Source of the DNA: a virus
DNA: 29,914 nucleotides
Reading direction: 5' to 3' (one strand)
IMG/VR virus record: IMGVR_UViG_3300024999_000295
Span: 1-29,914 of that record
The first letter of the stretch is position 1. Each line of letters opens with the position of its first letter. Made by a program: the position numbers and the translations under genes. Of the stretch, positions 3,352-18,730 are shown piece by piece. The notes below the pieces were generated by a model. It was given only the letters and a program-made list of their open reading frames with translations, ran no database searches and was not told the DNA's origin.

Positions 3352-3930
3352 TTAAATTTCTTTAAATTTTTTGCCAGAATGTTCTTCAAGAAAAGTAATC
3401 TTCTCAAAACTATCAAGTTTAACTTTTTTAGCATAGTTCATAATTCTTACTCTCTCATGGTAAGAAACAACTTTTTCGTTAACAAGTTTTTCGAATTGTT
3501 TTTGACTTTTTGAATCAAGTATTTCTTGGCATAATTCGTCGGTTAAGACTTGTTGTTTTACTTTTCCATCTGCTGAATCAAAACCAACATAGATACGAAG
3601 ATCAGGATTTTGAATGTAGATTCTAGCATTCGCTCCATTTCCTGTTCCTACAAAGAAGATGTTTGAATTGTTGCGAAGTGAAACAATATCACGATTTAGT
3701 AGGTCTAAGTATCCATTTGCTTTTATTGATAAGTCACCACCTTGGACTAAAGAAAAGTAAATATCATTATCAGCAAGATTTTGTAAACTTGAATATGAAT
3801 CCATGAGTGGGGGAGTATAGGTGTGTTGTTGAGATGATTGAGTTGTTGTTTGAGAAGGAGACTGGATTTCTGTATTTGGTTGATTTTCTGTATTAATTTG
3901 TTCCTTTGTTTCTGTTGATTTTACCGCCAT
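3352..3930 (-). CDS. Uncharacterised protein of the capsid operon
   Basis: This 192-residue protein has an excellent ribosome binding site (GGAGG, eight bases before the ATG). Residues 1-45 are low-complexity and rich in Thr, Gln, Ser and Asn, a probably disordered arm. The remainder is compact and mixed alpha/beta, with a central segment (NIFFVGTGNGANARIYI) and a charged helical end. I do not recognise the family. It lies between the capsid-side endonuclease and the connector-side endonuclease, that is, two genes after the major capsid protein once the mobile genes are ignored. A minor head or head-tail joining protein is possible but not shown by sequence. Confidence 0.6.
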   Translation of the reverse strand: MAVKSTETKEQINTENQPNTEIQSPSQTTTQSSQQHTYTPPLMDSYSSLQNLADNDIYFSLVQGGDLSIKANGYLDLLNRDIVSLRNNSNIFFVGTGNGANARIYIQNPDLRIYVGFDSADGKVKQQVLTDELCQEILDSKSQKQFEKLVNEKVVSYHERVRIMNYAKKVKLDSFEKITFLEEHSGKKFKEI

Positions 3931-3967
3931 TACTTATTCCTCCATTTATTCCTTTTAATTTTTTGAT

Positions 3968-5392
3968 TTAAGATGCTAAAAATAAAAATAACTCATCTTT
4001 TATATCAGATAAGTTACATTTTAAACTCTTTGGAAAAATACCTATATAATTTATATCTGGATTGTTTTTAAAATATAAATCTTTTTTGATTGTTTTATCT
4101 TTATATTCCTTATAATAACCAAATACAGACTTATCATTATATAGTCCATAATATTCAATTATAATAGGTTTATTTAATAACTTTCCATTGTAATATTCAA
4201 TCACAAAATCAGGATAATATTTCCGATCTTCATCTATGAACATATATTTTTTGTTACGTTTTGTTCCAATAGATTTAATTGAATTAATAAAGAAATCATG
4301 ATAAATATAATCAAAAACAAATTTTTCTTCGGCACTATCCAATATTGATTTTCCGTCGATTCCTATAAATAGTTTAAAATCAGATGGTTTTAAATCCCAT
4401 TCAGGATATAATTCATTTAACCAATCGTAAAACACAGCAGTATTATAATTTTTATAATTGGCATTAACTAAATAAGTATACCCATTTAGATACAACCACT
4501 TCGCATTAAAAAACTTTGCTAATGAATTTTTAAAGTTAACTTCATTAATTAATTCTTGATCAAATAAACTCTTTACATACCTCTTTAATTCTAAATCACA
4601 ATTATCTTTGCTATTCCAATATCCTATCGGTTTTACCCTAAAATCACTATAACTTAAGGCGATAGAAAAATATTTTTGACAGAACCATATGTATAAATCT
4701 GTTATATTTTTGTTATATAGTTCAGTTATGACATATAAGTTGTTTTCAACTAATGTAAGTCTGTTTACTTTACAACTTTTTACATCTTCTATTGTATAAT
4801 TATTTTTATTAAACATCCATTCTAACGCATAATAAACATTTTGCTTGTCTTTAAAATAATGAGGAGTCGTATTTTGCATTTCCCATTCTCTGATATCAAA
4901 TTGCGGAAAACATAAACTAATAATTTCGTAACATGTGTATGATTTATTATTTCGCATTGATGAACCAAAAGAGATAGAGTAATGTTTAATTTGATCACTA
5001 TTAAAGTGTAATAACTTTTCCTTATTATCGTATTTAAGGATATCTAAAATTACGTATTTCCATATTTTAATGTATTGTATCTCGTTCTGAAATTCATATG
5101 GTATTCTGTTTATTAATTTTCCATTAGAAGTTTTTTCAATAGTAGTCCACTTATACCACTGGATTACATCATAATCAGAAATACCGTTTATCAAGTTAAT
5201 TCCATATTTATTTTTATATCTCAATATATCAGTATTTATATTTTGACATTTCCTACACGTTCCTCTAAAACCATCTTTGCTTCCTTGTCTCAATGCAAAA
5301 TATTCAATATCCAAAGGATAAGATTTTTCACATTGAGAACATTTTTTAGTTTCTATTGCTATCAACCCTTTCTTAAACAATATATCAACCAT
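3968..5392 (-). CDS. Putative homing endonuclease, Zn-finger plus PD-(D/E)XK-like
   Basis: This 474-residue protein has an N-terminal zinc finger (C18-x2-C21...C46-x2-C49, with CSQCEKSYPLDIEYF, a form common in phage endonucleases). A long central DNA-reading region follows with repeated 'Y-x-W / F-P-x-W/F-D' elements (CFPQFDIREWE, ELYPEWDLKPSDF), then a C-terminal nuclease-like core (SAEEKFVFD; YYPDFVIEYYN with D395; IIIEYYG with E413). The catalytic Lys of PD-(D/E)XK is replaced by Tyr in the visible motif, as in some related families. It lies just downstream of the major capsid gene, a favoured homing site. The ATG at 5392 has no convincing ribosome binding site; instead a folded leader lies at 5410-5475. 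Function is inferred from domain layout and context. Confidence 0.65.
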   Translation of the reverse strand: MVDILFKKGLIAIETKKCSQCEKSYPLDIEYFALRQGSKDGFRGTCRKCQNINTDILRYKNKYGINLINGISDYDVIQWYKWTTIEKTSNGKLINRIPYEFQNEIQYIKIWKYVILDILKYDNKEKLLHFNSDQIKHYSISFGSSMRNNKSYTCYEIISLCFPQFDIREWEMQNTTPHYFKDKQNVYYALEWMFNKNNYTIEDVKSCKVNRLTLVENNLYVITELYNKNITDLYIWFCQKYFSIALSYSDFRVKPIGYWNSKDNCDLELKRYVKSLFDQELINEVNFKNSLAKFFNAKWLYLNGYTYLVNANYKNYNTAVFYDWLNELYPEWDLKPSDFKLFIGIDGKSILDSAEEKFVFDYIYHDFFINSIKSIGTKRNKKYMFIDEDRKYYPDFVIEYYNGKLLNKPIIIEYYGLYNDKSVFGYYKEYKDKTIKKDLYFKNNPDINYIGIFPKSLKCNLSDIKDELFLFLAS

Positions 5393-5409
5393 AAATATAA
5401 AATATTAAA

Positions 5410-5475
5410 TAGAGGAAGAATAATGGTTGATTAATTATTCTTGTCAATGGGTTAATTACTCCCACCTATCCTCTA
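5410..5475 (-). ncRNA. Three-helix folded leader upstream of capsid-side endonuclease
   Basis: In the transcript leader of the 3968-5392 gene, an outer helix is formed by 5410-5415 (tagagg) and 5470-5475 (cctcta). It encloses a 9-bp perfect hairpin (5416-5424 with 5434-5442) and a TGGG/CCCA hairpin (5448-5451 with 5461-5464). There is no U-tract, so this is not a normal terminator. The AGAGG...TGGG-N8/9-CCCA-N5-CCTCT arrangement recurs before the HNH endonuclease at 13554-14909. A role in limiting endonuclease expression is inferred by analogy with hairpins before T4 homing endonucleases. Confidence 0.45.
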
Positions 5476-5533
5476 AAATCTACAATATTAAAGTATATGA
5501 TAAAATTATTTTAGTTTAGTTATTAACAAAATA

Positions 5534-6655
5534 CTACAGACCTGTAGGGATAGGGAAATTACTATCAGAGATTAAACCCATCATAGCTCCATATTCTTCT
5601 ATAAATTTTGAACCAAATTCCATGTCGAATCGTGTCATATTTTCGCCTGAAATTACGTCAAACCCAGTAGCAGATGTAATACCTCCCCTCATACCTATTT
5701 TCAAAGGAGACATTTCTCCTGCTACCAAGAAAAACATCAATCCTTCAGGAAGGTATAAAGAATAGTTGTCTCCTGCACTATTTAACTTTGTTAACTGATA
5801 TGCATTTGGAAGCTCAACAATTGGAGTACCCATAAATGTAGTAAGCAAACCAGTTTTCATAATCTCATCAAGTATAGCAGGTGAAAATTGTTTTGCTAAA
5901 ACTCCTGCCGTATCAGTATTAAAACCAGTCATCAAATTGAGTTGTGAAATTACAGAATAGTCCCCCAAAATTCCTAATTTACCCCATCTTCGGACTTTTG
6001 TAATCATATCTTGAACTGATGCTTTTGTAATTCCTGCTGCTTCAATAAAGTGCTTTACTCCTGTTGAATTTTTAACTCCGCCATAAAGTGAATTAATTAC
6101 ATCATAAAACATTTTGTTTGTCATATCTGTAATGGTTTGTTCAGCCATGACACCTGTCCCGTCAAGGTTATTAGTAGCAATTTCCCTATAGTTAACGCTC
6201 ATACCTCCACTGATTGTTTTGGTAGATAATTCACGATAACTCCATGTGGATTTTGCAAATGGAACATCACCTTGATTAGCAGCAAAATTAGACATCTTTC
6301 CTTGTAATTTATATATTTTGAATAATAGACGATCTGCATATCCTACAGTTTGTGTTTCACCCATAAAATCAAAAAGGTTCAATCTCTTAAGCAATGGTGC
6401 ATTAATATATTGTGCAACAATTGTATTTAACTCCACTTTTGCTCTGCCATCACCTGCTAAAGCATCTGCACCCAATTTCTTAATAAAAGCATTCGCTTTA
6501 TTAGCTTTTTCACCAAATCTACCCGTATCTTCACCTTTAACCATTGCACTAAAAATCTCAACAATAGGCGACTTTTCTGTATATTTATGTTCAGGTTGAA
6601 CGCTATTCAATTCAACACTTGGTCTAAAATTTTCTAATCCTAAAGTATTACTCAT
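5534..6655 (-). CDS. Major capsid protein, HK97 fold
   Basis: This 373-residue protein is the best candidate for the main shell protein. It follows protease, scaffold and a small beta-rich protein, has one of the strongest ribosome binding sites (AGAAGGAGG, about nine bases before the ATG), and its sequence has the ordinary HK97-type pattern: a helical charged N-terminal arm (1-75), then an alpha/beta core ending in GMRGGITSATGFDVISGENM and MEFGSKFIEEYGA. Two Glu-Leu-Asn sites occur, at residues 15-17 (VELNS) and 75-77 (VELNT). Cleavage at the second would remove an arm the size of an HK97 delta domain and leave a shell protein of about 296 residues. That processing is my inference. No zinc or extra domains are visible. 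Confidence 0.85.
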   Translation of the reverse strand: MSNTLGLENFRPSVELNSVQPEHKYTEKSPIVEIFSAMVKGEDTGRFGEKANKANAFIKKLGADALAGDGRAKVELNTIVAQYINAPLLKRLNLFDFMGETQTVGYADRLLFKIYKLQGKMSNFAANQGDVPFAKSTWSYRELSTKTISGGMSVNYREIATNNLDGTGVMAEQTITDMTNKMFYDVINSLYGGVKNSTGVKHFIEAAGITKASVQDMITKVRRWGKLGILGDYSVISQLNLMTGFNTDTAGVLAKQFSPAILDEIMKTGLLTTFMGTPIVELPNAYQLTKLNSAGDNYSLYLPEGLMFFLVAGEMSPLKIGMRGGITSATGFDVISGENMTRFDMEFGSKFIEEYGAMMGLISDSNFPIPTGL

Positions 6656-7545: not shown

Positions 7546-8097
7546 TTAAAATAAATCCGAAATATCTTCTTCGGACTTCTCAGTGTTATGGATTGCCATA
7601 AATAAATCATTATTATCTTGTTTAGAATTCAACTCTACATTTTCCACGTTAGTTTTTAAAGAATTTAATTCCTTGACTCTTTTGACACACAATTCTGCTT
7701 CTTTTGCTTTAAGTCCCTCCATGTCATTCTTTTCTACATATTCAGTTTTTAGAGTATTAAGTTCGACCTCACTAAACCCATTTTTCTTAATTTCTACTTC
7801 AAAATATGTATTTATTTCTGCTATTCTTGCTTGTGCTTCTGCCTCTTGTGCTTCGATGTCTTTTGCTTCCTTAAACGCCTTTAAAGAATTTAACTCTTCA
7901 GTCATAGAATTAAGTTCGGTAGCTTTTGCTTCGATTGTTTTATTTGCTTCAACTATCGTACTATTTAATTCAGTAACAGTAGAATTCAATTCATCAATTT
8001 TAGTATTTGATTCTACAATTTTAGAATCTGAGTCAGTTAGTCTTGCTGTTAAATCATCTAATTTTGCATTGATTTCAGCAATTTGTTTTTCATCCAT
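7546..8097 (-). CDS. Internal in-frame scaffold protein start
   Basis: A second start lies inside the protease-scaffold gene, in the same frame: ATG at 8095-8097, preceded by AAAGGAGG with about eight bases between. It would give a 183-residue protein beginning MDEKQIAEINAKLDDLTARL, almost all coiled coil, with heptads broken by seven Glu-Leu-Asn motifs and an acidic end (EKSEEDISDLF) that could bind the capsid protein. Making free scaffold in excess from an internal start of a protease-scaffold gene is established for lambda C/Nu3. Here the evidence is the strong ribosome binding site falling exactly at the domain boundary, in a stretch (DKGGKEK) that is otherwise low-complexity linker. Confidence 0.65.
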   Translation of the reverse strand: MDEKQIAEINAKLDDLTARLTDSDSKIVESNTKIDELNSTVTELNSTIVEANKTIEAKATELNSMTEELNSLKAFKEAKDIEAQEAEAQARIAEINTYFEVEIKKNGFSEVELNTLKTEYVEKNDMEGLKAKEAELCVKRVKELNSLKTNVENVELNSKQDNNDLFMAIHNTEKSEEDISDLF

Positions 8098-9147
8098 TTT
8101 TTCTTTTCCTCCTTTGTCTTTCTTTTTTGATAATATATCCTTAATCAATGATGAATTAACTTCTATAGAAGGTTCATCATTGAGAGGAGTCCATGCTTGC
8201 TCTACTTCCACGATATCTCCGATGGTGACATCATTGTTGGTAACATTGTATGATGTTTTATAATAATTTTGAGGCGTACCATAGTCGGTCATTATTACAG
8301 TTTGGCTTTGTGGATAAAATTTATATGGATAGTAATATTTGTAGTCTTCTGGTTCTCTTATATTCATTGTTGCATTAAAAGCCCTACAAACAATCGTAGC
8401 TATGTCATCGTATGATAATTCATTAAGTTCAAAAACCTTACTTTTTACAATTACTTTTTCTTTTACTTGTTTACTCAATTCTTCTTTCACCTCATCTTCT
8501 ATGATAGTGTTTTGTTCTATTGGAATTACTTCTTCTATAACTTGATTTACTTGACTTGTATTATCAGATGGTTCTGTTTGAGCATTAAGTTCTAATAATA
8601 TTGCATTCTTATCAGATGGATTTATTACAAAGGCACTCCCGTTAAAATCGAACACACAAGGTTTACGATTGGTGGCAGTCCATTTTCCTGATTCATAAAT
8701 TATACTATCATTGCCTTTTTTTGCATGAATTTCAACACTAGTTTTGGGATTTACTCCTAAATCTAATTCTTCTTTAAGTTGGGCAATAAAATTAGGAACT
8801 TTATCTTCTTGAAGATATCCTTCTGCAATAAGATACTTCCCTTTAATTTCATCAATAGTTAAATTAGAAACATAAGCATTAGTAGTAACGCCTACTATAG
8901 ATGTATCAGGAAATATATATTCTCCATCATCTGTTTTTTGCTCACCATGATCTGTATATTGACTTTTATCTATATCTGCAAAAGTTGCATATAATAACAT
9001 ATTTCTAGCAGATTCAATGTTGTCATTAACATATTGTTCTGTAAAAATGCATCCATTCCCATTTTCTACTTCTAATTCGCTTACTACAAATTTTATTTCT
9101 CTACGATTAGCAACTTGTTCAGACGATAATTCAATAATGTGATTCAT
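7546..9147 (-). CDS. Prohead maturation protease fused to scaffold
   Basis: The 533-residue protein combines three parts. Residues about 1-185 resemble a herpesvirus/HK97-type prohead serine protease: QYTDHGE with candidate catalytic His67, and VNPKTSVEIH with candidate Ser137. Residues about 235-330 form a small domain with many aromatics (EDYKYYYPYKFYP and VTIGDIVEVEQAW) known from similar phage scaffolds, and 351-533 is a coiled-coil scaffold. A GTG at 9160-9162 would add five residues but overlaps the ribosome binding site AAGGAGG, so I prefer the ATG at 9145-9147. Nine Glu-Leu-Asn motifs lie in the two linkers and the scaffold, fitting self-cleavage and scaffold removal. The protease assignment is by pattern and by its place between portal and capsid genes. 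Confidence 0.75.
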   Translation of the reverse strand: MNHIIELSSEQVANRREIKFVVSELEVENGNGCIFTEQYVNDNIESARNMLLYATFADIDKSQYTDHGEQKTDDGEYIFPDTSIVGVTTNAYVSNLTIDEIKGKYLIAEGYLQEDKVPNFIAQLKEELDLGVNPKTSVEIHAKKGNDSIIYESGKWTATNRKPCVFDFNGSAFVINPSDKNAILLELNAQTEPSDNTSQVNQVIEEVIPIEQNTIIEDEVKEELSKQVKEKVIVKSKVFELNELSYDDIATIVCRAFNATMNIREPEDYKYYYPYKFYPQSQTVIMTDYGTPQNYYKTSYNVTNNDVTIGDIVEVEQAWTPLNDEPSIEVNSSLIKDILSKKKDKGGKEKMDEKQIAEINAKLDDLTARLTDSDSKIVESNTKIDELNSTVTELNSTIVEANKTIEAKATELNSMTEELNSLKAFKEAKDIEAQEAEAQARIAEINTYFEVEIKKNGFSEVELNTLKTEYVEKNDMEGLKAKEAELCVKRVKELNSLKTNVENVELNSKQDNNDLFMAIHNTEKSEEDISDLF

Positions 9148-9184
9148 TTTTCTACTTCTCACCTCCTTAAAATGATAAAATTAT

Positions 9185-10771
9185 TTATTTTGTTGATGGT
9201 TTAGGTGTCTTATTAGTATTAGCTGACTTAGACGCTAAAGTGTTTGGATTATTAGAGTCTTTGGTTGGTGCTCCACCTTTATCTCCAGTTTCATTATTTG
9301 ATGTAAAACTAGTTAAATGGGGAGGATAGAGGGCATCCATATCCATTACCTTCTCATATTCCATTAATGACATATATGTATCTATATCGCCACTACCAAC
9401 AGCATACAACCATAATCTACTTCCACTTGCTAACGTAAACATTTCTTTGGCAATATCATATTCATTTTTCTTATTCAATGAAGATGTTTTTAAATATATA
9501 AATTTAATTATATCTTTGCCTTTAGAATTAATTAGATTATTAAATACTTTAGTATATTGCCATGAAATTTGTTCTAACCATTGATAAATTTGTGTCAATA
9601 CTAGGTCGATATTAACTTGCAAACTACTATATGTAGCATTCCCTTCACCATTTAATGCTCCAGAAGCAAATCCTAAATCAGTTGAAATTCTTTTCATATT
9701 TTCATCTGTTAAAGTATTTATTGTATCATTAGTATTCGTTTCAAGTTTTCCAACTTCAGTCCCAGGAGCTAAAACTAAAGTAGTGGTCTTTCCAATTCTT
9801 CTATCACTTCCAGATGAATTAGATGAAACTGCATTCTTAAAATTATCATATTGATTTTGCTGTGCATCTTTATTTAATGCACAAGTTCCTTGTTTTTCAC
9901 CACTTGGTTGCTTGAGCCACCTTATGGTTCCAGCATTTTCAATAATATTTGCTCTTTGACTATCAGTATATTGATCAGAGAAAAACATATCTGACAAAGC
10001 AGCAACAGCCAACCCTCTACCGAATGGTTCATCAATATTACTCTTTATTTTTAAAACAACAGTTTTAGATTGATCTAATTTAAACCATCTTTTACTACCA
10101 TCTTTTTTATAATCTAAATATGCCTTTACAAATTCAGGTGGAAAGTTTTTAATTTCACCTAATAAATCATTACCAACAAAAGCATTAAAATAAATCATAT
10201 CAAACCCAACGACATAATCATTATTTTGAAAACCCAATATTCTACAATAATCTAAATTTAATGGTTGAATCATCATAGAATCATCCATAGACAATCCTTC
10301 AAGAATCTGCATACTGTCAACTAATCCTTGTTGAATTACTGCGTCTTTATTAGATGCTTTGGAATTTCTCATAAATCCTACATACATTCCATCTATACAA
10401 AGTCTAAGTAAAATATCTCTAGAAGTTAATTTATGATTAATCTTATCAGTCATTAAATTATATAGTTTTCTTCTTTTTTGATTTTGAGTTGTATTATCAT
10501 AGCATGTTGTAATTTTATCTAATGACGCAATAGATACATAATAATCTGTTGTATTCGACATAATTCCATTCATTCCATACATTTCTCTACTTAATTTACG
10601 TAATTGCATATTATATCTCATTGGATATTTACAATAAAGTTTTAGCTGTTCAAGTGAGATGCCAGTCGTTAATGCTTCTTGAAACATATATGTGGTTAAA
10701 GACATTGAATTCAATTCAACTGCATGAGAAGTTTCAAGTTTAAGTGGCAATATATTATTATATTCCTCCAA
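9185..10771 (-). CDS. Portal protein
   Basis: The portal forms the dodecameric ring through which DNA is packaged and to which the tail binds. This 528-residue protein lies directly between the large terminase and the protease-scaffold and has typical portal content: a helical N-terminus, a central part with YKKDGSKRWFKLD and SNIDEPFGRGLAV (clip/stem region), a long helix around NVDLVLTQIYQWLEQISWQY-like sequence at about 390-410, and a disordered Thr/Lys/Asn-rich tail (about 490-528). Translation starts at TTG (10769-10771), seven bases after AAAGGAGG; no ATG competes. Residues 18-22 read VELNS, a motif also found in the capsid protein and scaffold, so a 21-residue N-terminal peptide may be cut off during maturation (inference). 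Confidence 0.85.
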   Translation of the reverse strand: MEEYNNILPLKLETSHAVELNSMSLTTYMFQEALTTGISLEQLKLYCKYPMRYNMQLRKLSREMYGMNGIMSNTTDYYVSIASLDKITTCYDNTTQNQKRRKLYNLMTDKINHKLTSRDILLRLCIDGMYVGFMRNSKASNKDAVIQQGLVDSMQILEGLSMDDSMMIQPLNLDYCRILGFQNNDYVVGFDMIYFNAFVGNDLLGEIKNFPPEFVKAYLDYKKDGSKRWFKLDQSKTVVLKIKSNIDEPFGRGLAVAALSDMFFSDQYTDSQRANIIENAGTIRWLKQPSGEKQGTCALNKDAQQNQYDNFKNAVSSNSSGSDRRIGKTTTLVLAPGTEVGKLETNTNDTINTLTDENMKRISTDLGFASGALNGEGNATYSSLQVNIDLVLTQIYQWLEQISWQYTKVFNNLINSKGKDIIKFIYLKTSSLNKKNEYDIAKEMFTLASGSRLWLYAVGSGDIDTYMSLMEYEKVMDMDALYPPHLTSFTSNNETGDKGGAPTKDSNNPNTLASKSANTNKTPKPSTK

Positions 10772-10801: not shown

Positions 10802-12538
10802 TTATGAATAAGTAAATACGAAATCGTAATCATCATCTGTTTGATTTTTTCTATTATATTCTTCCATTTCATTAATTACTGACAAACCATAAGCCAAACT
10901 TGTTGCTCTATCACGTTTATGGGTTTTTACAATACGATCATAAATTATATTATTATTGCCACTTAAAATTTGTTTGATATTAGATAACTCCTGAATCAAT
11001 AAATCTGTCTGAACAAACATAGAATATTCTTCAACTGTTATTTGATCATTTTTGTATTCTTCGTCTACCTCTGTAGAATGTTTTAATAATCTTAAAGAAT
11101 TATTCTCAAAAGACGCTTTAAGATAAGTATACATTGTATTATTGCTACTTTGAGTTGCTGTGATCCCTCTAATTATAGGTAGAGAATTTTTTATTTCTCT
11201 ACCTTTATCATCATCATCTAAAACTAATGGGGGAAATTCAATCGTTTCTTTTGTTTTTTCATCTCTATATTCCCAAGCTTCATAAAAAAGTGAAGGCAAA
11301 GGTTCTCCGTTTCCACGCATATCAATAATTATTTTTATTGCATTAGGAAATTTAAGATGATATAATTCTCTTAAGAAATCTCTTTGTTCTGGAAGAGTTG
11401 CCCCATTATGAGTTTTTGTATAAACAACGTCTTTAAAATATGTACCATTAGCCTTTTCTTTAAGTTTAATCACATGGGTACATGCATTATCAGAGTTTTT
11501 AGCATTAGATAAAGCAACGTCATGTACAATTACATATTGACTTTTACTCTTTTTTGGTTGAATTAATTCACACTGATCTAATATTCTACATGGATATGTT
11601 ATTTCATAAGGATAATAACTTTCACCACTAGAACCTACGAACTGTCCACAATACTCATAAAGAAAAATTTCTTCAGTTGTGTCTGGTTTACTTCTTTCTT
11701 CCTCAATATCTTCTGCATCAAATATCATAGCTTCAATTCCAACTTTATAATCTAACGCACATACAAAATAGTTTTTATTACCTTCTTTCATTTTATCAGC
11801 AAAATAAGTAAATCTTTTATACAAATCGCTTGTTTTTAAAAAAGCTGAAGATATAAAAATTACTTTACCTTTTTCTGGTTGCATATGTTCAATTGCAACT
11901 GGTCTTTTAGTTTTTGTCATCGGTATTAGGATGGTTGATATTATACTATCTGGCACGAGCCTAGCTTCGTCAATTGCCAAATAATGAAATCTCCAACTTC
12001 TAGCTCCGTCGCCTTGATTTCTTCCCAATACGATAGCTCTAATTTCACTACCATTTCTAAAATTTACAACACAATTGTCCGAAGAAACACTAATTGGGAA
12101 TATTATTTCTCTTGCTATATTTGGATTGTTAGCTAATTCTCCTTTAATTTTTTGAATAATTACGTTCCTAGCCTGTTGTCCTTGCCCTGAAGCTATACCA
12201 CATTTTAACCCCTTGTGAAGAATACAAGAGCAAACAAAAAATAAAGCCACTATCCAAGATTTTCCAAGACCACGACAACAGATAAGCATTATATATTGAT
12301 ATCTTGCCATTGCTCTTAGTATCAATCGTTGAAAAAAATGAAGCTTTAAGCATAGAATTTCAATGCAAAATTTGTCGATATGAATTCTATAATATGCAAT
12401 GAATTTCTTCCATTCTTCATCATTTAAATTTTCCCCTTCTCCTATAATTGGATCATAACTAAAACTACTGTCTAAATTATCATAATCACCATCTTTTATA
12501 TGTCTACTTTTCTTACTAAAGTTTTTAAATACTGCCAT
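10802..12538 (-). CDS. terL: Terminase large subunit, ATPase plus nuclease
   Basis: The DNA-packaging motor and headful nuclease, 578 residues, with all expected elements: Walker A CCRGLGKS (88-95), Walker B LAIDE (187-191, Asp190/Glu191), a coupling motif FISSA (228-232), then the RNase H-like nuclease with Asp340 (YVIVHDVA), Asp406 (IIIDMRGNG) and Asp543 (KRDRATSLAYGL). The ATG follows TAGGTGA nine bases after the stop of the probable small subunit, and the portal follows 30 bases later, the ordinary packaging-module order. It is complete. A separate protein at 15109-16218 is related to it but carries the nuclease half before a fragment of the ATPase half. Confidence 0.93.
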   Translation of the reverse strand: MAVFKNFSKKSRHIKDGDYDNLDSSFSYDPIIGEGENLNDEEWKKFIAYYRIHIDKFCIEILCLKLHFFQRLILRAMARYQYIMLICCRGLGKSWIVALFFVCSCILHKGLKCGIASGQGQQARNVIIQKIKGELANNPNIAREIIFPISVSSDNCVVNFRNGSEIRAIVLGRNQGDGARSWRFHYLAIDEARLVPDSIISTILIPMTKTKRPVAIEHMQPEKGKVIFISSAFLKTSDLYKRFTYFADKMKEGNKNYFVCALDYKVGIEAMIFDAEDIEEERSKPDTTEEIFLYEYCGQFVGSSGESYYPYEITYPCRILDQCELIQPKKSKSQYVIVHDVALSNAKNSDNACTHVIKLKEKANGTYFKDVVYTKTHNGATLPEQRDFLRELYHLKFPNAIKIIIDMRGNGEPLPSLFYEAWEYRDEKTKETIEFPPLVLDDDDKGREIKNSLPIIRGITATQSSNNTMYTYLKASFENNSLRLLKHSTEVDEEYKNDQITVEEYSMFVQTDLLIQELSNIKQILSGNNNIIYDRIVKTHKRDRATSLAYGLSVINEMEEYNRKNQTDDDYDFVFTYS

Positions 12539-12546
12539 TATATCAC

Positions 12547-13389
12547 CTACAAAGATTTCTGGATGTTATTAAATTGATCTAATAAATGTTCAATAGCATC
12601 TTTTTCGTATTCTTCTGCTTCATATATCCACTCTTTACTTTCAATTTTATCAACAACTTGACAAATACTATTGATACCTGCACTCATACTTGATCTAGAA
12701 TTCTCACTAAATTGAGCAGATTTTGATAGAGTATCAAAAGTTGATTGTAAATCTTTATATTTTTTATCTGCTCCGTTTACACCATCTAACATATCTTGAT
12801 AAGCTTTATTTACCGCTAAACTAGCACAACAAATTTTCTTTGCATAGTCTTTATAACTCGTTGTGTTAATTTTAAAATCAGAATGTAGCCCCGTAAGATA
12901 TTGATTAAGATAATTTATATCTGTTTGGGTATATCTCCCGTTCCACTCTTCGCTATATATTCTTGTTTGATCTTCAAATACTAATTGCATCCCCTGTGAG
13001 GTGTTTTTAGCAAATATACTATCTTTATATCTTATAATTCCTTGTTTTTTCCACTGTTGCATTGATGAATTTTTAAGATACAAACCTAAAATTTTAATAC
13101 TGTCTTTTTCTTTTTCATATGTTGTAAAAAATACATCTTCAATGTACGGTCTATCTAATAATTCGCAAATCTGTATAGTAGCATTTCTAATATCAGAACC
13201 ATTTTGTATATGTGCGTTATATAATTCATAAATACAATCTTTACATGTTGGGAAAAATTCACTATACAAAGGGTTATCTGTCTTAAAAAAATTACTTATA
13301 TTTATAGATTTAATTAATCCACATTTAGTACAAGTAATTTCATTACGTTTAATTTTTACCTTTGTTTTAGATTTTTGAGTAGTTACCAT
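12547..13389 (-). CDS. Probable terminase small subunit
   Basis: This 280-residue protein ends nine bases before the large terminase and is therefore the likely small subunit, which recognises phage DNA. The N-terminal half has a zinc-finger pair (CTKCG at 20-24 and CKDC at about 49-52), then KDNPLYSEFFPTC-like and RDNIATIQICELLDRPYI-like text (about 68-82). The C-terminal half is helical, with a long region at about 180-280 suitable for oligomerisation. Zinc-ribbon small terminases of this length occur in low-GC phages. The ATG has AAGGAG ten bases upstream. The assignment relies on position, size and the N-terminal zinc finger; a transcription-related zinc-finger protein is an alternative. 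Confidence 0.6.
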   Translation of the reverse strand: MVTTQKSKTKVKIKRNEITCTKCGLIKSINISNFFKTDNPLYSEFFPTCKDCIYELYNAHIQNGSDIRNATIQICELLDRPYIEDVFFTTYEKEKDSIKILGLYLKNSSMQQWKKQGIIRYKDSIFAKNTSQGMQLVFEDQTRIYSEEWNGRYTQTDINYLNQYLTGLHSDFKINTTSYKDYAKKICCASLAVNKAYQDMLDGVNGADKKYKDLQSTFDTLSKSAQFSENSRSSMSAGINSICQVVDKIESKEWIYEAEEYEKDAIEHLLDQFNNIQKSL

Positions 13390-13553: not shown

Positions 13554-14909
13554 TTATTTTAAAACATTGATATATTTATATTTATCTTCTAATAAATAAT
13601 CGAACTCAAAATTCTTATACTTAATACAAAATTCTTCAAATTCACCATTATCAATTATTAAATTACCCATTTGTGAATGAAAAATCTTATGCAAAGAACT
13701 AAGAATCGGTTTCCCAAAACCTTTAAAATAATGTAATTCTACAAATTTATCTCCAATAGATTGGAGTTCTTGTTCTGTGTAATTATTTATTTCTCCCTTT
13801 AATTCTATATTTAATAAAGATAATGTTTCTTCTAAAATCTTTGTATATGAATGTAAATGATGTACAACTAAAGTTGAATCATTTAATCCAGTTATGCAAC
13901 ATTTAAAATTGTAAGCCTGTAATGAATCAAATTTCCAATTATTTAATTTACCTCTCATATAATCTGTTAAGTTGGATATTCCACCCTTCCAATTCCAACT
14001 ATTTTCTCCACTATGCCTAGCAAGTCCACACTCAGGACATCCTTGGTTTTCATTAATTATAGCACGTGGTCTAATATATTTAATTTCGTAATTATGTATG
14101 GCACAAATATATGGAACTAAAATATCAGTATGGATATGTTCTTCTGCTAATAAGATAAGATTTTTCTCTGCAAATTGATCTTTTACAAAATTATAATCCA
14201 ATCTTAGTGCTATTACTGCTCGTTCATCTCCACAATATTTACATCCTTGACCGTCATATATTGCCCTAGCTCTTATAGACTGAACGCCAATATCTTTATG
14301 TTTATCACATATAAATTCTAGTAATTGATCACCATTAATATATTCTTCTTCTTTTGTAATTAATGTAAGACCTTTATCTTTAAACATAATTGTAGTTTCT
14401 GCAAATGGTTTTCTAGTTTTAATCGCTGTTAATTCAGTTCCACATTCTTTGCACCCTGAATTTTGATTCAATTTAGCTAAAGTTATAGTTTTTATACCTT
14501 TATCATAATGTTTTCTACAAATATATTTTAACGGACTAAAACAATTTTCATAATCATCTATAGTAGATAATAATTCATAATTATATTCTTCAAACTTCTT
14601 TTTACCTTCTTGAAATTTTAATTTGTGTTCACACTCTTTACAAATATATTGCTTATCTTTATAATAATCATTATATTCCCTGTATGGAATATTTCTTTCT
14701 GCACCACATATGTCACAACCCATTAATACATTTACATGACTTTCTTTTTTTAAATCTTCGATTTTAATTAAAATAGTTTTGTCCAAATCAATAACTAAAA
14801 TATTTTTCCTTTTAGAATGTTGTTTTTTAGGAATATTATATCCTAAATTTCCGAAATATTTCGCATTTCCACCACTTAACTTAATTTCTACAAACTCACT
14901 AACTAACAT
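13554..14909 (-). CDS. HNH homing endonuclease with tandem zinc ribbons
   Basis: A 451-residue freestanding homing endonuclease. Residues 1-95 form an N-terminal module ending in a zinc ribbon (C65/C68...C90/C93). Three tandem repeats of about 70 residues follow, each with CxxH...CxxC (C131/H134...C153/C156; C201/H204...C223/C226; C269/H272...C291/C294), a DNA-reading array. Then comes an HNH domain at about 330-415: CCITG, LVVHHLHSY (His350/351/353) and SSLHKIFHSQ (His407/His411). It sits between the two terminase-related regions. The ATG at 14909 has GAAGGA nine bases upstream, and a folded leader lies at 14943-15009. The N-terminal module resembles that of the endonuclease at 25866-27080, although the nuclease types differ. 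Confidence 0.88.
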   Translation of the reverse strand: MLVSEFVEIKLSGGNAKYFGNLGYNIPKKQHSKRKNILVIDLDKTILIKIEDLKKESHVNVLMGCDICGAERNIPYREYNDYYKDKQYICKECEHKLKFQEGKKKFEEYNYELLSTIDDYENCFSPLKYICRKHYDKGIKTITLAKLNQNSGCKECGTELTAIKTRKPFAETTIMFKDKGLTLITKEEEYINGDQLLEFICDKHKDIGVQSIRARAIYDGQGCKYCGDERAVIALRLDYNFVKDQFAEKNLILLAEEHIHTDILVPYICAIHNYEIKYIRPRAIINENQGCPECGLARHSGENSWNWKGGISNLTDYMRGKLNNWKFDSLQAYNFKCCITGLNDSTLVVHHLHSYTKILEETLSLLNIELKGEINNYTEQELQSIGDKFVELHYFKGFGKPILSSLHKIFHSQMGNLIIDNGEFEEFCIKYKNFEFDYLLEDKYKYINVLK

Positions 14910-14942
14910 TCTTCTAATTCCTTCTTTCTACACATTTATTGT

Positions 14943-15009
14943 TCTCTACACTTAAAAATAGAAGAAGAGAGGCGTGTAGAGATGGGTCATGACTCCCAAA
15001 TTACCTCTC
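14943..15009 (-). ncRNA. Pseudoknot-capable leader upstream of HNH endonuclease
   Basis: Stem A pairs 14943-14951 with 14974-14982 (9 bp, perfect). Stem B pairs 14967-14972 (gagagg) with 15004-15009 (cctctc). A TGGG/CCCA hairpin (14983-14986 with 14995-14998) lies inside stem B. Stem B begins inside the loop of stem A, so both together would make a pseudoknot, or they may alternate. The sequence skeleton AGAGG...TGGG-N8-CCCA-N5-CCTCT is shared with the leader at 5410-5475. Confidence 0.45.
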
Positions 15010-15040: not shown

Positions 15041-15068
15041 AATAATCCAAACATTCTGCTTGGATTAT
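15041..15068 (-). terminator. Hairpin downstream of terminase-like gene
   Basis: A 9-bp perfect stem (15042-15050 with 15060-15068) and a 9-base loop begin about 40 bases after the stop of the terminase-like gene. On the minus strand it is followed by TTGTTATTC, a weak U-rich tail. A weak intrinsic terminator is the simplest reading. Confidence 0.45.
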
Positions 15069-15108
15069 CGACTTACCCACAAAACTTTATCTATATTTGT
15101 TTTCTAAT

Positions 15109-16218
15109 TTACATCTCAATAGTCTCAATATTATAATTATCTTTCAAACCCATACTATCTTTATCTCTTTCAAACAAAACAGAAGCAGGAAGAATTACAC
15201 TATAAAAAATATCTTTTTCTAAATCACTATCCACTACAGCATAATGATATCTTTGTCCACGACTATTTTGACCACCAGATACAAATCTAATATAGCTTCC
15301 ATTGAAAAATACAATATCTAATCCATCTTTTGTAATACTTAAACTCTTAATATCCTTAGAAAACAATTTCCTAAAATTTTCTTCTTGAGTAATATTCTGA
15401 AATTGTTTTATTTTATGTTTACCATTATGATAAAACAAAACCTCAATACCATCATTCTCAATACATTTGAATAAATATTTATAAAAAGTTCCATGAACTA
15501 CTTCATATTGTGCAATCCTTTTAGTAACATTATATTTTTCTTTAAAACTAATATCTAATTCTTCCTTGTTTTCAACAACCACGCCACTCATAGGATATGA
15601 ATAAAATGCTAATAAACAATTAACTCTTGATTTACCTATGGTTTCATCAATACGAGATAATCGTGGTTGTCCAATTGACTCCATTTTGATCTCAAGATTA
15701 TTTATCTCATTAATTAATTCACTAGTTTCTCTATGAAAATCCATAATATTTGATAATCCTAAAAATGGTTTTACATAACTAACCATAGCTAATTCTGGTG
15801 CTTGTAAGAATCTCAAATTTCCAAATTGTAAATCTTTCTTTATTTCATTAATATCTATGCTTTGATATATTTTTCTTCCATCTAATGCTCTTACAGAAAC
15901 ATTATTTGGATTTATATTCATTTTAAATTGTTCAATAAATCCTAACCCCATACCTGATTTATCTGCTAAAATAATCTGTATTCCAAATTCATTGCACAAC
16001 CAATATGCTTCATCTACAAGCTCTGCAAATGATTTTCCTATAAATGTTTTTATAACTAATATATCTTTTCTATTTCCTTGATTATTAATTGCCATCATAG
16101 TTGTAATATCTCTATTATTTCCTTTTGTAGCAGATACATCTACAATTAGATAATCACATTTACGATTATTTGACATAGTTAATACTCTGTTTTTGTTTAA
16201 TAGTTCTTTAGTTATCAT
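15109..16218 (-). CDS. Domain-swapped terminase-like protein
   Basis: This 369-residue protein resembles the large terminase with its halves in reverse order. Residues about 22-210 match the RNase H-like packaging nuclease: DYLIVDVSA (Asp27), IILADKSGMG (Asp86) and RIDETIGKSRVNCLLAFY (Asp191), aligning with Asp340, Asp406 and Asp543 of the large subunit. Residues about 293-345 then match the ATPase region around Walker B: FFNGSYIRFVSGGQN and RYHYAVVDS against FRNGSEIRAIVLGRN and RFHYLAIDE. The Walker B Glu is replaced by Ser (Ser331), and no Walker A is visible, so the ATPase part is probably inactive. I choose the ATG at 16216-16218 because AGAAGGAGA lies upstream; an ATG six codons earlier overlaps that site. 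Function is unknown; a packaging nuclease partner, regulator or recombination nuclease are options. Confidence 0.75.
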   Translation of the reverse strand: MITKELLNKNRVLTMSNNRKCDYLIVDVSATKGNNRDITTMMAINNQGNRKDILVIKTFIGKSFAELVDEAYWLCNEFGIQIILADKSGMGLGFIEQFKMNINPNNVSVRALDGRKIYQSIDINEIKKDLQFGNLRFLQAPELAMVSYVKPFLGLSNIMDFHRETSELINEINNLEIKMESIGQPRLSRIDETIGKSRVNCLLAFYSYPMSGVVVENKEELDISFKEKYNVTKRIAQYEVVHGTFYKYLFKCIENDGIEVLFYHNGKHKIKQFQNITQEENFRKLFSKDIKSLSITKDGLDIVFFNGSYIRFVSGGQNSRGQRYHYAVVDSDLEKDIFYSVILPASVLFERDKDSMGLKDNYNIETIEM

Positions 16219-16300
16219 ATATTTTCTCCTTCTCATGGTAGGACATGACCCAATATTTTAGTGGTAAGACACTACCTTATTTGCATAACTTATTATTTTT

Positions 16301-17663: not shown

Positions 17664-18209
17664 TTAATCATCCAACCACTCTTTCATATCCTCTTTTGTT
17701 TCTTTAATTCCAAAATTTTTAAATATATAAAGACTATCAATGAATTTCTCAATTACACATTCCCTGCAAGCACCTTCTGGATCAAAAAGCATATCAAGAA
17801 ATTCTGAAATGACATTCTGTTCTCGCTCTTCCGTACAATATTCACAAGTGCAAAATTCACGTTCGTCTTCATATTCCAAAGCATCGATTCTCCTTTGTTC
17901 TACACAGTCAGGACAATCACATTGGATAACTAAATCATTATCAATATAATCTTCCACCTCATTATCTTCATAGCAATCAGGTTTACCACATGTGCAATTA
18001 TACTCATCACAATCATCATTATCGCAAGAACAACATTTACAGAGATATGATTCTTCTTCTAATTCCATTTCATCATCTGCGACTAACATTTCAACTTCCA
18101 ATTGTTCATGATATATTTTTTCATCAACAATTTTCCCATTAATACTGTATGTATCGTACCATTGTTGGTTCTCAGCATCCCACATTGATTCATTGTTAAA
18201 AATACGCAT
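17664..18209 (-). CDS. Acidic cysteine-rich, probably metal-binding protein
   Basis: This 181-residue, very acidic protein carries repeated C-x-C-x2-C-type clusters: LCKCCSCDNDDC, NCTCGKPDC, QCDCPDC, FCTCEYC and a final CREC, separated by Glu/Asp-rich spacers. Such spacing is well suited to bind zinc or other metals, and I do not recognise a named family. The N-terminal part (YSINGKIVDEKIYHEQLE) resembles that of the next gene upstream (YQINNKFVTKEVYDSME), and both have an F-C-x-C-x2-C element, so the two genes are probably distant paralogues. The ATG has AGGAATAAAACA upstream. A metal-dependent regulator or a protein-binding decoy are guesses without direct evidence. Confidence 0.65.
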   Translation of the reverse strand: MRIFNNESMWDAENQQWYDTYSINGKIVDEKIYHEQLEVEMLVADDEMELEEESYLCKCCSCDNDDCDEYNCTCGKPDCYEDNEVEDYIDNDLVIQCDCPDCVEQRRIDALEYEDEREFCTCEYCTEEREQNVISEFLDMLFDPEGACRECVIEKFIDSLYIFKNFGIKETKEDMKEWLDD

Positions 18210-18268
18210 TGTTTTATTCCTGCCTTTTTTATTTTATTTTTATTTATAATAATTATTTTCTTTTCCTA

Positions 18269-18730
18269 TTATTCTTCCACAACATCAAACTGACTCAAAA
18301 AATCATCTAATTGATCTTCTAATTTTCCTGAAACCTTTATCATATTATTACCAATCTCATTATATATTTGAGATGCAGTTTCTAAATGAGATTTTATTTT
18401 GATAGATTCAACATAGTTTTGTAATCCTTCTAAAGCCTCATTATCATCCATTTCTCTAATGTCATCAATAATTTGAAGTAATTCTTGGCATTGATCACAT
18501 TGGCAGAATTCAAATTCATCATTGCCTCTATTTTTATTAATATCAATAACTTTACAACTATTTTCAGGACTTCCATTCATTTTAGGGAGTGGAGGTAGAA
18601 CAAATAGAGATTCATCTTGTTCCATTGAATCATATACTTCTTTTGTGACAAATTTATTGTTTATTTGGTATGAAGTTTCATTTGTTGTTTCATTGATAAT
18701 CTCTTTGAACTTTATTTTTTCAAATGACAT
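18269..18730 (-). CDS. Acidic protein, paralogue of neighbouring cysteine-rich protein
   Basis: This 153-residue protein has an N-terminal segment (YQINNKFVTKEVYDSME) that matches the start of the gene at 17664-18209, one FEFCQCDQCQELL cluster (C-x-C-x2-C, about residue 75), and a C-terminal helical part (QIYNEIGNNMIKVSGKLE) ending in acidic residues. It has one cysteine cluster where its neighbour has four. The ATG has GAGGATA about seven bases upstream. Function unknown. Its presence beside a repeat-expanded relative suggests local duplication and divergence. Confidence 0.6.
   Translation of the reverse strand: MSFEKIKFKEIINETTNETSYQINNKFVTKEVYDSMEQDESLFVLPPLPKMNGSPENSCKVIDINKNRGNDEFEFCQCDQCQELLQIIDDIREMDDNEALEGLQNYVESIKIKSHLETASQIYNEIGNNMIKVSGKLEDQLDDFLSQFDVVEE

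Follow-up and report, generated by a model that had tools for sequence, protein, structure and literature searches.

The phage contig analysed here, referred to as the window and taken over its whole 29.9-kb length, has a G+C content of ∼28%, and its genes lie on the minus strand. In transcriptional order, a KilAC-type antirepressor gene is followed by that of the protein encoded at 15109–16218 (−), which is termed PERM, and then by genes for an HNH-type homing endonuclease, a small-terminase (TerS) candidate, the large terminase (TerL) and the portal protein. The features of this region are the following.

16235–16271 (−): PERM leader with two direct repeats of TGTCYTACCAY (16261–16271 and 16235–16245), operator-like
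15109–16218 (−): PERM, derived from TerL with its halves swapped (family alignment; ribosome-binding site before 16218)
15610–16203 (−): N half of PERM, residues 12–209, resembling TerL 313–549, the nuclease domain of RNase H fold (hhalign probability 97.6; AF2 and Foldseek)
16138–16140 (−): D33, counterpart of TerL D340, kept in 14 of 14 covering sequences (alignments)
15961–15963 (−): D92, counterpart of TerL D406, kept in 14 of 14 covering sequences (alignments)
15628–15630 (−): S203, counterpart of the catalytic TerL D543, with loss of the third metal ligand (hhalign, MAFFT and model)
15187–15498 (−): C module of PERM, residues 247–350, resembling TerL 96–206, the ATPase core past Walker A and through Walker B (hhalign probability 97.2; phrog_15503, E 2.8e-8)
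15226–15231 (−): D336-S337, a degenerate Walker B that is Asp-Glu in TerL (family alignment)
15041–15069 (−): predicted terminator-like hairpin 3′ of PERM
14918–15009 (−): structured leader RNA of the homing endonuclease gene, with two stems, a pseudoknot and an alternative partner beside the ribosome-binding site (covariation)
13554–14909 (−): homing endonuclease-like gene of HNH type, replaced by a GIY-YIG type in some relatives (homology and position)
12547–13389 (−): TerS candidate, phrog_3314 of no assigned function (PHROG match and position before TerL)
10802–12538 (−): complete TerL with Walker A CCRGLGKS, Walker B AIDE and D340, D406 and D543 (homology and motifs)
9185–10771 (−): portal protein (phrog_2739, E 6.7e-45)

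The PERM reading frame is a real one. It is open from 16236, the position of its first ATG, and residues are numbered from there; subtracting 6 gives the numbering of a preliminary description of this DNA. The likely start codon is at 16218, and since the ribosome-binding site AGAAGGAG precedes it, the limits of 15109–16218 originally given for this minus-strand gene fit the likely start. The HNH assignment of 13554–14909 rests on sequence features, its Pfam match being sub-threshold. Inspection of the TerS candidate (12547–13389, −) revealed an N-terminal CxxC...CxxC zinc-ribbon-like segment; it resembles the N-termini of homing endonucleases encoded nearby, for example at 3968–5392. Opposite the gene at 7546–9162 there is an antisense open frame of 225–226 codons (7583–8263 (+) in the window and 17943–18620 (−) in contig L016); codon bias in an ELNS-rich protein probably accounts for it. 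Among GTDB genomes, the nearest TerLs are those of Cytobacillus kochii and a Lachnospiraceae bacterium (57–58%), which suggests a host within the Bacillota.

Both halves of PERM are homologous to TerL and stand in swapped order. In an hhalign comparison between a profile built from 17 PERM relatives and 44 TerLs from the fetched loci, TerL 313–549 was matched by the N half (score 89.8) and TerL 96–206 by the C half (score 79.3), at the probabilities listed above. Column shuffles, 20 for each half, scored at most 21.0 (N) and 23.2 (C) and reversed profiles 17.9 and 14.7, respectively, and descent from TerL is thus statistically supported for each half, far above the shuffles. The profile phrog_15503 matches residues 255–352 of PERM (E 2.8e-8) as well as the window TerL. 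A functional TerL has its ATPase before its nuclease; in PERM the nuclease-like half comes first and half an ATPase second, and this architecture is solid. It is the one given in the preliminary description, and the profile comparison bears it out, in that the C-terminal part matches TerL as the nuclease-like half does and is not an unrelated domain. Absent from PERM are TerL residues 1–95 (with Walker A) and 207–312 and the conserved C-terminal tail (DYDFVFSYS type), which is found in eight of eight TerLs in one alignment.

In tree analysis each half forms a monophyletic group outside all TerLs sampled, with support of 100. Because both halves branch outside every TerL sampled at these loci, PERM did not arise by rearrangement of the adjacent terL, and its earlier explanation as a fusion of neighbouring phage genes finds no support. 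An exon of a split and spliced terL was also rejected, as the window TerL is already complete and the window contains no Rfam intron. By Pfam, PERM has no HNH, GIY-YIG or other nuclease motif; a TATA-binding-like match was sub-threshold and was disregarded. A profile search of solved-structure sequences with PERM returned no relevant match.

The counterparts of TerL D340 and D406 are D33 and D92, neither of which varies among the 14 sequences with coverage at these positions. TerL D543 aligns with S203, by hhalign and independently by MAFFT, where the column holds Asp in 14 of 14 TerLs and S, T, G or L across the PERM family (the MAFFT alignment used was the version without partial PERM rows, mixed versions that misplaced TerL fragments having been discarded). 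The preliminary description had equated Asp27, Asp86 and Asp191 with D340, D406 and D543. The first two, D33 and D92 in the present numbering, hold; the third, D197, is not the counterpart of D543 and is Lys or Asn in some relatives, with no nearby acid conserved. The nuclease triad of PERM is therefore incomplete, with two carboxylates kept and the third gone. On the ATPase side, homology to TerL begins past the P-loop, at TerL residue 96, and in the Walker B pair D336 is invariant and is followed by S, N, T, R or K; the absence of Walker A and the replacement of the Walker B Glu by Ser had been read correctly from the window PERM. Judged by sequence, both active sites are incomplete, although PERM may have kept some metal-dependent activity, residual or altered, D33 and D92 being invariant.

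Structure prediction by AlphaFold on PERM sequences alone (a nine-member family) gave a poor model (mean pLDDT 43.8) that was not used for fold claims. With TerL pieces added to the alignment, AF2 gave a mean pLDDT of 79.0 and a pTM of 0.67, and this model predicts an RNase H-like nuclease fold, with support that is only partly independent, since it was built under the guidance of TerL rows. The top Foldseek matches were the TerL nucleases of G20c, cytomegalovirus, Sf6, HK97, D6E and SPP1 (E 1.2e-6, probability 1.00); the best are metal-bound, and they concern the nuclease half of PERM. An Avs3–terminase complex was also among the structural matches. In the model, S203 opens the last helix of the nuclease-like half, D197 lies in the preceding loop, and one continuous helix (231–260) is predicted in place of the first strand and P-loop.

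Scans of IMG/VR recovered 18 PERM relatives with 51–93% identity, among them the near-identical pairs L016/L020 and L004/L005; all occurrences come from one metagenome series (3300024999–3300025012), a possible bias. Sixteen relatives have at least part of the nuclease-like half, and the swapped order first noticed in the window is kept on these 16 further contigs, as is the gene order of PERM, homing endonuclease (HNH or GIY-YIG), small-terminase candidate and TerL. PERM always lies beside a homing endonuclease locus in this sample, and endonuclease loci without PERM also exist. Contigs L022 and L023 have the C module only, in the same position. The free-standing C module of L023 nests within the fused family in the C-half tree, so that it is simpler to assume that the N half was lost, and an ancestral C module that was fused later is disfavoured. 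A free-standing N half was not found among the viral contigs, nor was PERM found in GTDB genome contigs by a pattern scan. Among annotated phages there was no record at 80% PERM coverage, the matches being ordinary TerLs or weak.

Within this small group of related phages PERM is conserved under purifying selection. The frame is intact in all complete copies and dN/dS is 0.13–0.25 for most close pairs in both halves, with a few pairs at 0.4–0.6. A 14-residue N-terminal motif, NKNRVLTMSNNRKC, is constant as protein, with up to 5 of its 14 codons differing synonymously. The divergence of the two halves differs in some pairs (dS of 0.82 versus 0.29 between the window and L002, and of 0.41 versus 0.96 between the window and L003), which points to recombination between them. 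The breakpoint lies at about residues 222–235, and synonymous divergence is two- to threefold different between the halves in several pairs.

PERM was shown not to be tuned to the TerL of its own phage. The window and L016 have identical TerLs (100%) and PERMs of 71% identity, whereas the window and L001 have PERMs of 93% and TerLs of 26% identity. Contigs L006 and L007 are 95% identical in PERM, 98% in the endonuclease and 93% in the portal protein, with TerS at 23% and TerL at 24%. In L044 and L036, PERM is missing exactly between flanks of 85% and 93% DNA identity (upstream and downstream, respectively, for L044 compared with the PERM-bearing L006), and the TerLs of both PERM-free contigs are 94% identical to that of L006. 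The TerL of L033, which has no PERM, is 98% identical to that of the PERM-bearing L017. Since near-identical TerLs occur with and without PERM, it is an accessory protein that the adjoining terminase does not need.

The terminase genes themselves vary at this site. The TerS–TerL pair is swapped wholesale between L006 (about 3753–6331) and L007 (3534–6358), between a conserved endonuclease and portal, and about six TerL lineages use the same site. The TerL frames of some relatives are interrupted at residue 93 (L058, L059, L062 and L074), at ∼185–195 (L073 and L080) or at 414 (L076 and L077). These positions coincide with conserved sites or lie close to them, in the vicinity of Walker A and of Walker B, and the interruptions are probably introns, inteins or inserted genes. 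The N half of PERM begins at a TerL domain boundary and its C module near the Walker A site, and it is a matter of speculation that the C module was born from TerL breakage near Walker A.

Two leader elements accompany these genes. The PERM leader is near-invariant at all PERM loci, with its repeats 25–27 nt apart and one copy in L007; the repeats are missing from the two loci that have the C module only and nearly missing elsewhere in the fetched loci. An RNA hairpin in this leader was rejected (z +0.66), and because no RNA fold is present the repeats are possibly a protein-binding operator. The structured leader RNA upstream of the endonuclease also occurs in L001, L002, L003, L005, L008, L016–L019, L021, L028, L033, L044, L045, L048 and L077, where it precedes HNH and GIY-YIG genes alike. 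It consists of two nested stems and a pseudoknot arm. The arm covaries with each of two copies farther downstream, and the position of the second copy, beside or over the ribosome-binding site, suggests a two-state translation switch. Of the cells, 92.6% pair, and both sides change in 16 of the 22 pairs (0 of 500 shuffles). Weaker matches to it lie ahead of endonuclease genes in L064 and downstream of the portal. This leader is not in Rfam, and the whole window has nothing at the Rfam gathering threshold; a weak match near the leader was dismissed as a chance animal microRNA on the opposite strand.

TerL is among the most conserved phage proteins and is a known trigger of bacterial immunity. 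We tentatively favour the reading that PERM is an accessory look-alike of TerL, without a complete active site, that would act by binding and not as a subunit of its own phage's motor. PERM probably neither hydrolyses ATP nor cuts DNA as TerL does, and it is because of this probable incapacity that we infer a binding role. A binding target other than the own motor is suggested because the active sites are incomplete, the protein is under purifying selection, its distribution is accessory and it does not match the local TerL. As a look-alike, PERM would compete for something that recognises TerL, and candidate targets would be a host terminase sensor of the Avs1–4 class or the partners that a rival phage uses for packaging. 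Avs1–Avs4 recognise TerL, the portal or another phage protein (PMC12931631). A decoy for a host sensor and interference with rival packaging would be the two concrete versions of the binding reading. A TerL look-alike might trigger a TerL sensor instead of blocking it, and the constant place of PERM beside TerS and TerL would also fit a role in packaging. More broadly, phages might carry purpose-made, reversed-order TerL pseudo-proteins as decoys or interference agents against anything that recognises terminase, be it immune sensors or rival packaging, while TerS–TerL is swapped wholesale; this we regard as possible but doubtful.

It is unlikely that PERM regulates or joins its own motor, with the C module sitting in the TerL ring and lending an ARG-type arginine, without an ATP site of its own, so as to tune or pause packaging. 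Such a role would agree with the position of PERM, always upstream of TerS–TerL in the relatives, and with R326, which is invariant and aligns with an Arg that many TerLs conserve ahead of Walker B. The TerL of P74-26 has a trans-acting arginine finger, R139, between alpha2 and beta3 and before the Walker B strand (PMC5727402), and by likeness to such fingers R326 could in principle serve a neighbouring subunit. However, one PERM type stands beside TerLs that are 22–26% identical and identical TerLs stand beside PERMs that are 71% identical, close TerS–TerL cassettes exist without PERM, and PERM lacks the P-loop part, the motif III region and the conserved C-terminal tail of TerL. The mixed-motor regulator suggested in the preliminary description is likewise unsupported, since PERM shows no co-variation with the TerL next to it and phages with nearly the same TerL lack it. 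We give a similarly low standing to PERM as a dominant-negative TerL mimic that is directed at co-infecting rivals, binding their TerS, portal or TerL, and linked to the homing endonuclease cassette, itself rival-targeting. Its own TerS and TerL would have to be spared, yet about six unrelated TerL lineages occur with no matching variation in PERM. What speaks for it is that a homing endonuclease immediately follows every PERM, at a site where terminases are replaced wholesale, and that nuclease genes mark exchange boundaries between phages and are frequent beside terminase genes (PMC10448857).

The invariance of D33 and D92, together with the metal-bound TerL nucleases as best matches of the predicted structure, would be in keeping with an active or altered nuclease that uses these two residues and a third ligand not yet recognised, and that might, for example, help to process DNA at the packaging site. 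This is nevertheless quite improbable, given the S, T, G or L at the third carboxylate position, the lack of a nearby conserved acid and the Lys or Asn at D197 in some relatives; the nuclease subunit once considered for this locus is unsupported, as the loss of the third metal-binding Asp extends to the entire family. Least of all do we expect PERM to be a functionless decaying relic or an assembly artefact. The incomplete active sites, the retention of part of TerL only, the pairs with dN/dS of 0.4–0.6 and the two contigs that keep the C module alone could be read in that way, but the same fusion is found on 16 further contigs with intact frames, dN/dS mostly near 0.2 and a near-invariant leader.

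As a decoy, PERM would show a phage answer to terminase-directed defence; as a protein that interferes with packaging, it would be a new phage-versus-phage weapon. In either case, a nuclease-like TerL match near terminase need not be a nuclease, and TerL-based phage classification can catch look-alikes such as PERM. Neither a conserved TerL derivative under selection, with its halves swapped and its active sites incomplete, nor a TerL-mimic inhibitor of Avs was found in the open-access literature searched, and the connection of PERM with Avs is a putative one drawn here. The Avs1–Avs4 sensors and their phage triggers (PMC12931631) may offer a phage a reason to make a TerL look-alike.

Compared with TerL itself (Terminase_6N, phrog_2 and phrog_15503; T4 gp17, G20c, Sf6 and P74-26), PERM is homologous in both halves, shares the predicted RNase H-like fold and keeps the FxNGSxI, ARG and Walker B strand motifs. 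Unlike TerL, it has the reverse order, lacks Walker A, the Walker B Glu, the third nuclease Asp, the lid region and the C-terminal tail, and clusters with no TerL sampled. The terL of ICP1 is split by introns, with homing endonucleases nearby (PMC10448857). A homing endonuclease beside terminase is common to both systems, and TerL pieces in separate frames also occur in relatives here; PERM, however, is a single fused and reversed frame beside a complete TerL, and cannot be spliced into one. An HNH nuclease of the HK97 type is encoded upstream of terminase (PMC10448857), an arrangement shared by the HNH gene directly upstream of TerS–TerL in the window. Its counterpart here is the gene at 13554–14909 and not PERM, which is without an HNH signature.
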